From the NCBI GenBank assembly GCA_905234195.1, contig CAJOFR010000023.1:1-39057 (forward strand): a DNA stretch of 39,057 nt, read 5' to 3'. Made by a program: the position numbers and the translations under genes. Under the pieces are notes generated by a model. The model worked only from the letters and a program-made list of their open reading frames with translations. It had not been told where the DNA came from and did not search any database. This document shows, piece after piece, positions 8,862-37,691 of the stretch; within the stretch, counting starts at the first letter, position 1; every line of letters starts with the position of its first letter. Origin of the DNA: an uncultured Selenomonadaceae bacterium (GTDB taxonomy: Bacteria; Bacillota; Negativicutes; Selenomonadales; Selenomonadaceae).

Positions 8862-8963
8862 GGAGAGAGGCCGCCCAAGGATGGGCGGCCGCCCGCATTT
8901 GGTCGCGTGATGCGACCTCTGCGGGCAGTTTTCTTTTGCTTCTTTTCTTTTGCGCCAAAAGAA
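8862..8963 (-). repeat. Dispersed three-hairpin repeat, copy A
   Basis: Read on the minus strand (the direction of ilvB): hairpin I at 8945-8963 (arms TTCTTTTG/CAAAAGAA, shorter than in other copies), a CAAAAGAAAACT linker, hairpin II at 8891-8926 (arms GCCCGCA/TGCGGGC enclosing GGTCGC/GCGACC), and hairpin III at 8869-8890 (arms GGCCGCCCA/TGGGCGGCC, loop TCCT), then TCTCTCCT. It lies between ilvB and ilvN, so it could attenuate expression of the downstream genes. CCCTTAACCC-like tracts flank both sides. Confidence 0.85.
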
Positions 8964-9025
8964 CCCTCTCAAGGGGAAAGGGATTAGTGGAAAGGGTTAA
9001 GGGAAAAGAATCTTATCCCTAAAAA

Positions 9026-10711
9026 CTAGTTCAAGACCATTTGGTCAAGGCGTTTGCCGCCGGGAACCATAGGAATAACATTTTCGTCCTGCGGAACATA
9101 AACGTCAATGACAGCCGCGCCCTGCGAATTCAAAATTTCCGGCAGCTTAGTTTCAAGTTCCTCCGCCTTCGTGAGACGATAGCCGCGAACGCCCATAGCC
9201 TCTGCAATCTTTATGAAGTCGCGTTTTAAATTCAGTTCGGAGGCGGAATAATGGTGGCTGTAGAAAAGCCGCTGCCACTGCCCGACCATTCCCAAAATAA
9301 AATTGTGGACGATAACAACTTTAACGTCAATGTCGTGGTCGGCTATCGTCGCAAGCTCCTGAATGTTCATCATAATGGAGCCGTCGCCGGTGAAGAGGAC
9401 AACTTTTTTTTCGGGACAAGCAAGTTTCGCACCCATAGCGGCGGGCAATCCGAAACCCATTGTGCCGAGCCCGCCACTAGTCAAAAATTGTCGCGGAGCC
9501 TTCGTCTTGAAAAATTGCGCCGCCCACATTTGGTGCTGACCGACGTCCGTCACGGCGATTGTATTTTCGTCGCAAAGGTCGCTGATTTTTGAAATAAGTG
9601 CGCCCGGTTTTATGACGTCGCCTTCAGATTTAAAACTGAAAGGATGTTTTTTGCCCTCGTCGACGGCTTGATTTTTCCACGCGGAAAATTTTTCGGCGAA
9701 ATTAATTTTCGAGGCGTTAAGTTTGTTTTTGAAAAGAGGCAACGACCATTTTAAATCGCCGACAACTTTATAATCGACTTGAATATTTTTGTTGACTTCG
9801 GCGGGATCAATTTCAAAGTGCACGATTTTCGCATTGGGAGCAAAATCCGCAACGCGCCCCGTCACTCTGTCGCTGAACCTCATGCCAATCGCCAAAAGCA
9901 AATCACAATTTTGAATCGCCATGTTCGCGCCGTAAGAGCCGTGCATTCCCGCGAAACCGAGATAACCTGCGCGCTCCGGTTCAATGCAACCGAGCCCCAT
10001 TAAAGTGGAAGTGGAAGGGCAGCCGAGACGATTTAAAATTTCTCTGACGTCCTCCGAAGTCTCCGAAGAAATCACCCCGCCGCCGATAAAAATTAAAGGA
10101 CGCTCACAATTTTCGACAGCCGTGACAATTTCGTCTATGGATTTTTCGTCGCCGATATTTTTATCGGTATAGCCGCGCAGATTTATTTTGTCGGGATAAT
10201 TAAAATCAATCTCCGCGTTAAAAACGTCAGCGGCAATATCAATGGACACGGGAGCTTTCCTGCCCGTCCGCGCGATAAAAAAAGCTTCCTTAATGACGCG
10301 CGGCACGTCGTTCACATTTTTAACAAGGTAGTTGTGTTTCGTGATTGGCGTGGTGATTCCGCAGACGTCGACTTCTTGAAAAGAATCCTTGCCGATAGCG
10401 TGATTGGCAACCTGCCCCGTGATACAAACCAGCGGCACCGAATCCATGTTCGCGGTGGCAATGCCCGTGACTAAATTCGCCGCGCCGGGTCCGCTCGTCG
10501 CAATGACGACGCCGACTTTTCCGGTCGCGCGCGCGTAGCCGTCCGCCGCATGCACCGCGCCTTGTTCATGCCCCGTCAAAATATTGGGGAACTTCATTTT
10601 ATAAATTTCGTCGTAGAGTTTCAGCACGACTCCGCCCGGGTAGCCGAAAACCAAGTCAACGCCTTCTTTTTTCAGGCTCTCCAAAACTGCCTGCGCTCCG
10701 TTCATCCTCAA
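9026..10711 (-). CDS. ilvB: Acetolactate synthase large (catalytic) subunit
   Basis: This thiamine-diphosphate enzyme forms acetolactate or acetohydroxybutyrate, the first common step of branched-chain amino acid synthesis. The catalytic Glu lies in TGHEQGAVHAADGYAR (about residue 49). The ThDP/Mg motif starts GDGSIMMN and the FAD-binding middle domain is intact. The length of 561 residues is usual. The longest frame starts at TTG 10726, but GGAGGG (10719-10724) lies inside it. TTG 10711 is 7 nt from that site and gives the family-like start MRMNGAQAV; ATG 10705 is the alternative. It forms a unit with ilvN and nagB, interrupted by repeat copy A. Confidence 0.96.
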   Translation of the reverse strand: MRMNGAQAVLESLKKEGVDLVFGYPGGVVLKLYDEIYKMKFPNILTGHEQGAVHAADGYARATGKVGVVIATSGPGAANLVTGIATANMDSVPLVCITGQVANHAIGKDSFQEVDVCGITTPITKHNYLVKNVNDVPRVIKEAFFIARTGRKAPVSIDIAADVFNAEIDFNYPDKINLRGYTDKNIGDEKSIDEIVTAVENCERPLIFIGGGVISSETSEDVREILNRLGCPSTSTLMGLGCIEPERAGYLGFAGMHGSYGANMAIQNCDLLLAIGMRFSDRVTGRVADFAPNAKIVHFEIDPAEVNKNIQVDYKVVGDLKWSLPLFKNKLNASKINFAEKFSAWKNQAVDEGKKHPFSFKSEGDVIKPGALISKISDLCDENTIAVTDVGQHQMWAAQFFKTKAPRQFLTSGGLGTMGFGLPAAMGAKLACPEKKVVLFTGDGSIMMNIQELATIADHDIDVKVVIVHNFILGMVGQWQRLFYSHHYSASELNLKRDFIKIAEAMGVRGYRLTKAEELETKLPEILNSQGAAVIDVYVPQDENVIPMVPGGKRLDQMVLN

Positions 10712-10745
10712 AACTTTTCCCTCCAAATTAATCTGGTTTTGAGGA

Positions 10746-10774
10746 ATTGTATCATAAATTTTTTTTCTTGTGTA
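10746..10774 (-). promoter_or_regulatory. Promoter of ilvB
   Basis: On the minus strand, -35 is TACACA (10769-10774) and -10 is TACAAT (10746-10751), with a 17-bp spacer and a TG one base before the -10. It sits between ilvB and the end of the hydrolase gene. The short leader, about 35 nt, shows no leucine-codon leader peptide or T-box. Confidence 0.55.
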
Positions 10775-36031: not shown

Positions 36032-36052
36032 TTTTGAAAGGAGATTTTATAA

Positions 36053-37522
36053 ATGGCGTTTCCAAAAAATTTTTTGTGGGGCGGCGCGACTGCTGCCAAT
36101 CAGTGTGAAGGTGCTTACCTCGAAGGCGGCAAAGGTCTTTCCGTGCCCGATATGTTGCTGGGCGGCGACGTGAACACCCCGCGCACTTTTTGCCCGAAGA
36201 TTGAGGACGGCGTTTTCTATCCCTCCCACGAGGCAATCGACATGTATCATCATTTTAAGGAGGACATTGCGCTTTTCGCGGAGATGGGTTTTAAATGTTA
36301 TCGCACGTCGATAAATTGGGCGCGCATTTTCCCGAACGGAGACGACGCCGAGCCGAACGAAGAGGGCTTGAAATTTTACGACGAACTTTTTGACGAGTGC
36401 AAGAAACACGGAATTGAACCGCTTGTCACTCTTTGTCACTACGAAATTCCCTGGGCTATCGTCACGAAGTATCACGGCTTTTACAACCGCAAAACTATCG
36501 ACCTCTTCGTAAAATATGCGACTACCTGTTTTGAACGCTACAAGGACAAAGTAAAATATTGGTTGACGTTTAACGAAATTAATATGCCAATTATGGAACC
36601 GCATATGGGAAATCTCTACGGCGTCGGCGTCATGCAGGAAGAGGATTTGAAACGTACTGCGCCTTGCAAATTCCCTGAACTTATCGATATTCCGCAAGAG
36701 AGAATTGAAGCGGTGCATAATGAGTTCGTGGCGTCAGCGAAGGCTGTCATTGCCGGTCACAAAATTAATCCGGACTTCATGATTGGCAACATGATTTGTC
36801 ATATCACCTGGTACCCGCTCACGCCGAACCCGAAAGACATGCTCGAAGACCAACGCCGCGATTCTTTCTGCAATGACATTTGCGGAGATGTTCAAGTACG
36901 CGGTGATTATCCTTCCTTCGCGAAAAAATTCTATCAGGATATGGGAGTCGACACGGCTTTCATGGACAACGAGGAAGACAAAAAAATTCTGCGCGAAGGC
37001 GTCGTAGATTTTTACACGTTCAGTTATTACATGTCGAATTGTGTGACGGTGGACGAGAATGCCGAGCAGGTAAAAGGCAACATGATGGGCGGCGCGAAAA
37101 ATCCTTACCTCAAGGCAAGCGATTGGGGTTGGCAAATTGATCCGGACGGCTTGCGCTGGACGCTGAATAAACTTGCGTCGCGTTATCCGGGCACGCCGCT
37201 CATGGTCGTTGAAAATGGTTTCGGCGCGTTTGACAAAGTGGAGGCTGACGGCGCGATTCACGACGACTACCGCATCAGTTATTTCCGCGAACATATCCGC
37301 GCGATGGGCGAGGCGGTCAAGGACGGCGTTCCGCTGATTGGTTACACGACGTGGGGACCGATTGATTTAGTTTCCGCCGGCACCGGACAATATGCGAAAC
37401 GCTACGGATTTATCTACGTCAATCGTCACGACGACGGCACGGGAGATTTTTCGCGCAGCCGCAAAGATTCTTTTTTCTGGTACAAAAAAGTTATTGCCTC
37501 CAACGGCGAAGACTTAAACTGA
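36053..37522 (+). CDS. bglA: 6-Phospho-beta-glucosidase (GH1)
   Basis: This 489-residue glycoside hydrolase family 1 enzyme splits the phosphorylated beta-glucosides imported by the neighbouring PTS. The acid/base is Glu175 in LTFNEIN and the nucleophile Glu387 in VVENGFG. The C-terminal [13 protein letters not shown] is the phosphate-binding pattern of the 6-phospho group. ATG 36053 has AAAGGAG upstream. It is the last gene of the operon, followed by repeat copy E with a terminator-like end. Confidence 0.96.
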
Positions 37523-37580
37523 TTCTTTTCCCTTAAAACTTTCCCCTTATTCTTTACCTCTTTCCCCTTGAGAAGGATCT

Positions 37581-37691
37581 CTTCTTTTCTTTTGGCACAA
37601 AAGAAAAGAAGCAAAAGAAAACTGCCCGCAGAGGTCGCATCACGCGACCAAATGCGAGCGGCCGCTCATCCTTGAGCGGCCTCTTTTTTTT
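37581..37691 (+). repeat. Dispersed three-hairpin repeat, copy E
   Basis: Downstream of and co-oriented with bglA. Hairpin I (37581-37611) has arms CTTCTTTTCTTTTG/CAAAAGAAAAGAAG around GCA. Hairpin II (37624-37659) has one uncompensated mismatch in its outer stem. Hairpin III (37660-37681) is GGCCGCTCA-TCCT-TGAGCGGCC, with a compensated pair relative to copies A-C, followed by a T-run to 37691. Directly after it the open frame of the truncated MuF gene begins. Confidence 0.85.

Follow-up and report, generated by a model that had tools for sequence, protein, structure and literature searches.

A modular three-hairpin repeat of a Selenomonadaceae genus, probably mobile and apparently often co-opted as a transcription terminator

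Why does a repeat built of three hairpins occur five times within one stretch of bacterial DNA, each time just behind a gene on its own strand? The stretch comprises positions 1 to 39,057 of contig CAJOFR010000023.1 from an uncultured Selenomonadaceae bacterium (GenBank assembly GCA_905234195.1; hereafter the window, 39,057 nucleotides), and a sequence-only reading of it had taken the consistent polarity of the copies as the mark of a 3′-end RNA element (terminator, stability or processing module) that also spreads as a mobile repeat. The five copies were confirmed at the coordinates and on the strands assigned to them, and all five (5/5) have the stop codon of a same-strand gene upstream. By extending the analysis to other genomes of the genus, we found that the element is likely a non-autonomous, mobile, modular repeat that has often been co-opted as a terminator. 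It would then offer a naturally occurring example of a mobile repeat that was apparently recruited for transcription termination, with its antisense copies as a built-in control.

In the source genome of the window, that of a Quinella-like rumen bacterium (G000; 2.09 Mb in 47 contigs, 88% complete), the core of hairpin I and linker gave 116 matches with up to two mismatches versus 4 for the reversed pattern, a stricter hairpin-I pattern gave 105 exact matches, and at least 109 copies were extracted (from 80 stretches around the matches listed plus the window). With a covariance model, copies were detected in 31 of the 37 genus genomes and in none of the 23 from outside the genus; the search relied on fast filters and scored no more than 63 candidates in each genome, so its counts are floors and it misses weak or diverged forms. 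At least 148 copies were found in G034 and at least 102 in G006, the two genomes of the genus that were used together with G000 for all context counts below. Across the phylum, the exact hairpin-I pattern was present in 5 of 398 genomes including G000, three of these representing one sister genus, and plasmid records yielded one match to a window copy, from Ruminococcus.

The proposal that the element spreads as a mobile repeat is supported by this copy number and by empty homologous sites in relatives. Among the 24 ilvB rows listed (the G000 row included, and two rows ending at a contig edge), ilvN, identified in the relatives by reading the sequence, directly follows ilvB without an element in nine, two of them outside the genus, and a copy directly behind ilvB is present in the G000 row only; G006 has a copy ~524 nt beyond ilvB, at the expected end of ilvN. 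Eight gene pairs are neighbors, too, in the G034 or G006 stretches that were retrieved: seven of the gaps are empty there, one of these holding an ordinary terminator-like hairpin, and the occupied pair has a copy at the same place and on the same strand. Because copies split gene pairs that are directly adjacent in relatives, ilvB–ilvN and others, we consider the element mobile. Directly behind the flavodiiron gene, a profile search found a copy at 1 of 54 loci (L010), and related pieces were recognized by eye at two (L009 and L048) among 35 loci listed. Homologues of bglA were compared by eye, and as the next gene varies by species these are homologous gene ends rather than proven identical sites: sense copies follow the gene in G002, G011 and G019, an antisense copy in G006 and a remnant in G004, and the element-free homologues of G017, G013 and G015 are followed by ordinary terminator-like hairpins that lead into T-runs.

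The consistent polarity was not borne out beyond the window. Genes were called with a custom codon-usage gene caller, and 197 copies could be classed by their neighbors (G000, 98/109; G034, 65/66; G006, 34/36; the 11 G000 copies dropped overlap a called gene, are truncated or have one side without a neighbor). Of these, 80 lie in convergent gaps, 51 in tandem gaps co-oriented with the genes, 43 in tandem gaps antisense to them and 23 in divergent gaps (40, 28, 17 and 13 in G000; 24, 16, 18 and 7 in G034; 16, 7, 8 and 3 in G006). Strand in tandem gaps was random (p = 0.47 pooled; 0.14 in G000, 0.86 in G034 and 1.0 in G006), so random orientation, the outcome that the sequence-only reading had itself named as refuting, was obtained in all three genomes; overall, 131 of 197 copies have a same-strand gene upstream. 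Within the window, copies 21215 and 25524 are uninformative on polarity because they lie in convergent gaps, where either strand follows a same-strand gene, leaving three of five copies that are informative, and five same-strand placements out of five are expected by chance with a probability of ~0.16 at the G000 rate (68/98). The polarity of the window reflects the preference for convergent gaps together with a small sample.

What governs placement is the type of gap. Pooled over blocks of 439 kb from G000 (parts of three contigs plus the window), 800 kb from G034 and 355 kb from G006, occupancy was 49/150 for convergent, 11/148 for divergent and 59/1074 for tandem gaps; contigs, and some G006 blocks, were picked with the knowledge that they hold copies, which may make the absolute rates high, and the comparison between gap types should hold. 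The rule is placement 3′ of stop codons, foremost between convergent genes, in either direction. At 5 of the 13 divergent G000 sites, which were checked against Pfam, 8 of 10 flanking proteins carry a domain, with both flanks doing so at three of the five sites, for example argininosuccinate synthase facing HypD.

The notion of a 3′-end RNA element thus loses its fixed polarity to the orientation counts of three genomes, and keeps hairpin III, which together with a T-run forms a predicted intrinsic terminator in many copies. T-runs, here a minimum of 8 T among the 12 nt that follow an intact hairpin III, were found in G000 in 17/30 convergent, 3/20 tandem co-oriented, 1/14 tandem antisense and 1/10 divergent copies, with corresponding values of 9/23, 1/16, 3/18 and 0/7 in G034 and 8/15, 2/6, 0/4 and 1/3 in G006. 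With a custom terminator finder, a GC-rich hairpin with an immediate T-run on the sense strand, our criterion for an intrinsic terminator, was called in 61 of 197 copies and was lacking in 136. Where a sense gene lies upstream, 54/131 copies have such a predicted sense terminator, versus 7/66 where none does (p = 7e-6), and the contrast had the same direction in each genome (21/68 versus 2/30 in G000, p = 0.009; 14/40 versus 3/25 in G034, p = 0.047; 19/23 versus 2/11 in G006, p = 0.0005). As a matched control we used convergent and tandem antisense copies, which are comparable in the distance from the 3′ end of the element to the opposite-strand stop (medians 14 versus 12 nt): sense terminators were predicted in 41/80 of the former versus 5/43 of the latter (p = 1.2e-5 pooled; 0.005, 0.1 and 0.002 in G000, G034 and G006).

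When the element was masked in occupied convergent gaps, predicted sense terminators fell from 43/74 to 6/74 (12/15 to 0 in G006, 14/24 to 2 in G034 and 17/35 to 4 in G000); masking leaves little sequence, and the drop shows only the absence of another terminator in the gap. Any terminator was predicted in 3/14 element-free convergent gaps of G006, 6/20 of G034 and 13/23 of G000. One G034 copy starts 17 nt past a tmRNA gene (L312:3336-3818), and its hairpin III followed by TCTTTGTTTTG appears consistent with a terminator role. Behind genes in need of a stop signal, the repeat often seems to have taken over termination. We also considered a built-in antisense terminator, formed by hairpin II and the T-rich reverse of the linker, and rejected it: it was predicted in 108/197 copies but is blind to context (66/123 with an antisense gene on the 3′ side versus 42/74 without, p = 0.77), and some of the hairpins called for it are oddly folded, so this reading carries little weight.

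The three hairpins behave as modules in fixed order within the ~110-bp element. Among G000 copies, variants of hairpins I, II and III mix in different combinations, some of them strongly associated: of the 15 copies whose hairpin I has the loop TTTAG and the end TAA, 14 carry hairpin II type A, a type found also with the ends AAG and TAG and with several kinds of hairpin III. The hairpin II loop is mostly AUCAC, hairpin III went unrecognized by the pattern in 10/109 copies, and clean losses of hairpin arms are visible among the extracted copies. In an alignment of G034 copies, which was fitted to the covariance model and is hence biased toward structure, both sides have changed in 25 of 35 pairs, and pairing is seen in 94.3% of cells; this share falls to 46–50% when the partner is shifted by 1–3 columns, and the covariation score was reached by 0/500 shuffles. 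The count of further pair types in this alignment was matched by 80/500 shuffles and lends no support to covariation. The hairpin III loop reads RUCCNU in 75/76, 64/64 and 29/30 copies of G000, G034 and G006, counting, out of 109, 66 and 36 copies, only the hairpins III selected by a criterion on stem and loop length; the stems covary, whereas this loop is nearly invariant.

We propose that the repeat would enter intergenic gaps in either orientation and that copies are found where harm is least, behind stops and especially in convergent gaps, and seldom in divergent, promoter-containing gaps. Hairpin III is a GC-rich stem right at the 3′ end of the element, and a T-rich flank, original or acquired, would complete an intrinsic terminator for the same-strand upstream gene, after which the host's own terminator may be lost. 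This explanation is supported directly by copy number, insertion relative to relatives, gene context, stem covariation and the link between sense terminators and an upstream gene, and also by the ordinary terminator-like hairpins behind element-free bglA homologues. It further implies that the predicted terminators would indeed terminate transcription, that host terminators were presumably lost after insertion, that T-runs are probably retained by selection and not by target choice, and that the element is presumably moved by machinery other than the candidate discussed below.

Several observations weigh against this explanation. Of the 131 copies behind a sense gene, 77 lack a predicted sense terminator, and termination is therefore not the general function of the element. 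In tandem gaps, sense terminators occur in 13/51 co-oriented versus 5/43 antisense copies (p = 0.12), a difference seen in G006 alone (6/7 versus 1/8). As the T-run belongs to the flank, it may reflect target preference for T-rich sequence, and no transposase was found that accounts for the element. Ten sister-genus loci showed no T-run by eye, and with six tandem co-oriented copies, one antisense, two convergent and one inside a called gene, the sister genus may have polarity. The target preference belongs to a possible, clearly less probable account, that of a purely selfish intergenic repeat without host function, whose context would result solely from purifying selection against damage to promoters and operons and whose T-runs would reflect a preference for T-rich targets. 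Operon insertions without a T-run, random strand, few divergent copies and 5′ flanks that often look T-rich by eye all suit such a repeat; it fits poorly with sense terminators being ~4 times commoner with a sense gene upstream at equal stop distance (41/80 versus 5/43) and with the ordinary hairpins of element-free bglA homologues. Co-option of a mobile repeat is also preferred over a fixed-polarity 3′-end RNA element (terminator, stability or processing module) functional wherever it is located, which we regard as improbable: the five same-strand window copies, the 131/197 copies behind a same-strand gene and the three-hairpin fold with 25/35 pairs changed on both sides point toward it, but the 51 co-oriented versus 43 antisense tandem copies and the 23 divergent ones largely refute it, and copies inside operons without a T-run, as well as the 10/109 copies with an unrecognized hairpin III, are hard to reconcile with it.

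Two further readings concern the proteins that might act on the repeat. CsrA decoys or local CsrA sites, formed by CsrA-binding hairpins on an antisense transcript, are suggested by the loop RUCCNU, which reads ANGGAY on the opposite strand and is invariant on covarying stems, and by a CsrA gene detected in 33 of 37 genus genomes, G000 included. Moreover, a motif study (PMC4333381) proposes CsrA binding for the TwoAYGGAY motif and the reverse complement of Bacillaceae-1; a Pseudoalteromonas relative of our repeat matches TwoAYGGAY antisense, and in sense orientation one copy comes near Bacillaceae-1 (33 bits, cut-off 35). CsrA is nevertheless also present in five genomes in which no copy was detected (G003, G007, G009, G017 and G036), the mostly AUCAC loop of hairpin II has no GGA on its antisense strand, and conservation of the loop would be expected equally if it were bound by a mobile element's DNA-binding protein, which makes this reading unlikely. 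CsrA presence was rejected as a predictor of copies, there being no link across the genus genomes, and the CsrA connection may be taken as a lead, not a result.

Mobilization as a repetitive extragenic palindromic (REP)-type repeat by a RAYT (Y1_Tnp) transposase is less likely still. It would fit an extragenic palindromic repeat found mostly in convergent and unidirectional gaps, as REPs are (PMC3733652), and GTAG at the end of hairpin I in some copies; this GTAG is however paired and varies to GAAG and GTAA. An unpaired GTAG/CGTC end tag was not found: GTAG pairs with CTAC and co-varies to GAAG/CTTC and GTAA/TTAC, and it is present also ahead of hairpin II, where GAAG is commoner. RAYT mobilization was rejected as unsupported: no match to Y1_Tnp (PF01797) was obtained for 32 of the 37 genus genomes, which include the copy-rich G006 (99% complete, at least 102 copies), G034 and G029. 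G000 (an assembly that is 88% complete) has a single Y1_Tnp match, to part of the domain, inside an IS605-like element, and the surrounding 3.2-kb locus has no repeat. This IS605-like element (L143:1440-2830) comprises a partial TnpA together with an open frame for TnpB and lies within an amidohydrolase-like gene; apart from Y1_Tnp, these gene names are ones we presume from reading the sequence.

No target-site duplication was found, empty sites in relatives being too diverged for junction alignment, and no terminal inverted repeats were seen by eye at the core ends, where degenerate inverted octamer-like flanks surround many copies. Such degenerate CTAATCCCTTAACCC / GGGATTAGGGG octamer-like stretches, seen in the window at 1787-1877 and 8809-8858, also occur alone, and they are a second kind of intergenic repeat. 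Extra 5′ arms of hairpin I were observed just upstream of complete elements (L073 near 1650, L084 near 1750, the G034 side of L121 at 3664 and several G034 copies), one G034 site having two additional arms in series; these surplus arms are possibly a trace of the mode of insertion.

The five window copies illustrate this range of forms. The order proposed for them, hairpin I, CAAAAGAAAA linker, hairpin II and hairpin III, holds, and the T-run attributed to all five follows hairpin III in three (3/5; copies 21215, 25524 and 37581). Each copy folds with an energy 6.8 to 8.8 standard deviations below dinucleotide shuffles (z −6.8 to −8.8), with 0/200 shuffles equal in each case. The gene names first given to the upstream genes (ilvB, hydrolase, EamA, flavodiiron, bglA) agree with Pfam, which places a TPP (thiamine pyrophosphate) enzyme and then an acetolactate synthase small subunit (ilvB and ilvN) around copy 8862 and identifies the other upstream genes as an alpha/beta-hydrolase-type enzyme, EamA, a flavodiiron-type protein and glycosyl hydrolase family 1.

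The first copy (8862–8963, − strand) lies between ilvB (9026–10726, −) and ilvN (8303–8812, −); its 3′ end is TCTCTCCTAAC without a T-run, and hairpin I is absent from its predicted fold because the outer 5′ arm of this hairpin is lost. The second (19247–19342, +), after the hydrolase gene (18078–19220, +) and before a diaminopimelate dehydrogenase-like gene (19435–20418, +), has a hairpin III without its outer 3′ arm, and the terminator finder gives none. The third (21215–21322, −), in the convergent gap between a gene at 20434–21180 (+) and the EamA gene (21353–22186, −), has hairpin III with a T-run and a predicted sense terminator of −23.7 kcal/mol. The fourth (25524–25636, +), in the convergent gap between the flavodiiron gene (24315–25493, +) and a chemotaxis receptor gene (25672–27690, −), has a predicted sense terminator of −16.0 kcal/mol and shows all modules on the + strand: hairpin I at 25524–25554 (14 bp in the fold, a T/C-rich arm against an A/G-rich arm), the linker CAAAAGAAAAATC at 25555–25567 (T-rich on the antisense strand, from the sequence), hairpin II at 25568–25602 (in the fold, two stems with an internal loop between them and the terminal loop AUCAC), hairpin III at 25605–25624 (loop AUCCUU, placed from sequence and loop class) and the T-run at 25625–25636, directly 3′ of hairpin III. 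The closest relatives of this flavodiiron gene belong to Selenomonadaceae, mostly rumen metagenome assemblies, Quinella among them. The fifth copy (37581–37691, +), after bglA (36053–37522, +) and before a Phage_Mu_F-like gene (37728–38714, +), has a predicted sense terminator of −20.9 kcal/mol; the adjoining phage-like gene could mark a prophage edge or remnant.

Relatives of the element were also found further out. In most of ten folds made of sister-genus copies, all three hairpins are retained, and the first ~52 nt (hairpin I and linker) of a diverged copy, L033, matched 19 plasmid records from Burkholderia and Paraburkholderia (16 of 19), Pseudoalteromonas and Aeromonas. The Pseudoalteromonas repeat, which has hairpin I and linker in common with our element, scored 51.3 bits antisense against TwoAYGGAY (RF01731; cut-off 43), with the Aeromonas repeat just short at 41.5; TwoAYGGAY had no match in the window (gathering threshold) or in 22 loci with copies from the genus, near relatives and the sister genus (E up to 1). 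Bacillaceae-1 RNA (RF01690) carries RUCC-type loops, and one copy (L001 1568-1633) scored 33.0 bits against it over hairpins II and III, below the gathering threshold of 35 and with hairpin I outside the matched stretch; the family is not among the matches of the 22 scanned loci. Bp1_684 (Bp1_Cand684_SIPHT, RF02421) matched a Burkholderia cepacia hairpin I relative between aceF and lpdA (L257:1408-1552) with 118.8 bits (cut-off 44), an overlap confined to hairpin I and upstream sequence, and a Paraburkholderia relative with 32.2 bits, under the threshold of 44; it had no match in the window or the 22 scanned loci. Since their scores fall short of these families, the genus copies were not assigned to TwoAYGGAY, Bacillaceae-1 or Bp1_684. 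The published work on Bp1_684 (PMC3521395) lists it among reverse-transcription PCR candidates and as detected in several phyla. Its small RNA (sRNA) label may describe a repeat inside the aceF–lpdA operon transcript.

A speculative reading, to which we give limited credence, is that our repeats are one lineage of a multi-phylum superfamily marked by hairpin I (ACTTTTCTTT..AAAGAAAAGT), a CAAAAGAAA linker and RUCC-loop hairpins. Bacillaceae-1, TwoAYGGAY and Bp1_684 would be fragments of this superfamily that were described separately, and the superfamily would act as a mobile modular terminator kit that hosts re-use, its loop kept by a reader protein of the host or of a mobile element. If so, some Rfam candidate sRNA or cis-element entries would describe parts of a single mobile repeat, and an invariant loop on changing stems would point to a reader of the loop. 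The repeat itself appears undescribed so far, as judged from our literature searches only: among the papers listed by searches on repeats in Quinella, Selenomonas or Veillonella none was seen to describe it, letter strings of related repeats (the commonest G000 form not among them) were unmatched, and the words 'repetitive', 'intergenic' and 'transposase' are absent from the main text of the Quinella genome paper.

Among known systems, REPs and the CGTC- and GTAG-tagged palindromes resemble the element in having many intergenic palindromic copies, mostly in convergent and unidirectional gaps and plausibly transcribed, and the CGTC families apparently have no dedicated transposase (PMC3733652, Di Nocera 2013). 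Unlike REPs (20–40 bp), the element is ~110 bp long and consists of three ordered modules, with no unpaired GTAG/CGTC end tag and no RAYT found. DNA uptake sequences of Neisseria and Pasteurellaceae offer a parallel in function, as repeats co-opted into intrinsic terminators (PMC1852404); they are however ~9–11 nt long and generally present in at least 1000 copies, whereas our element is a 110-bp structured repeat of which ~100–150 copies were found.

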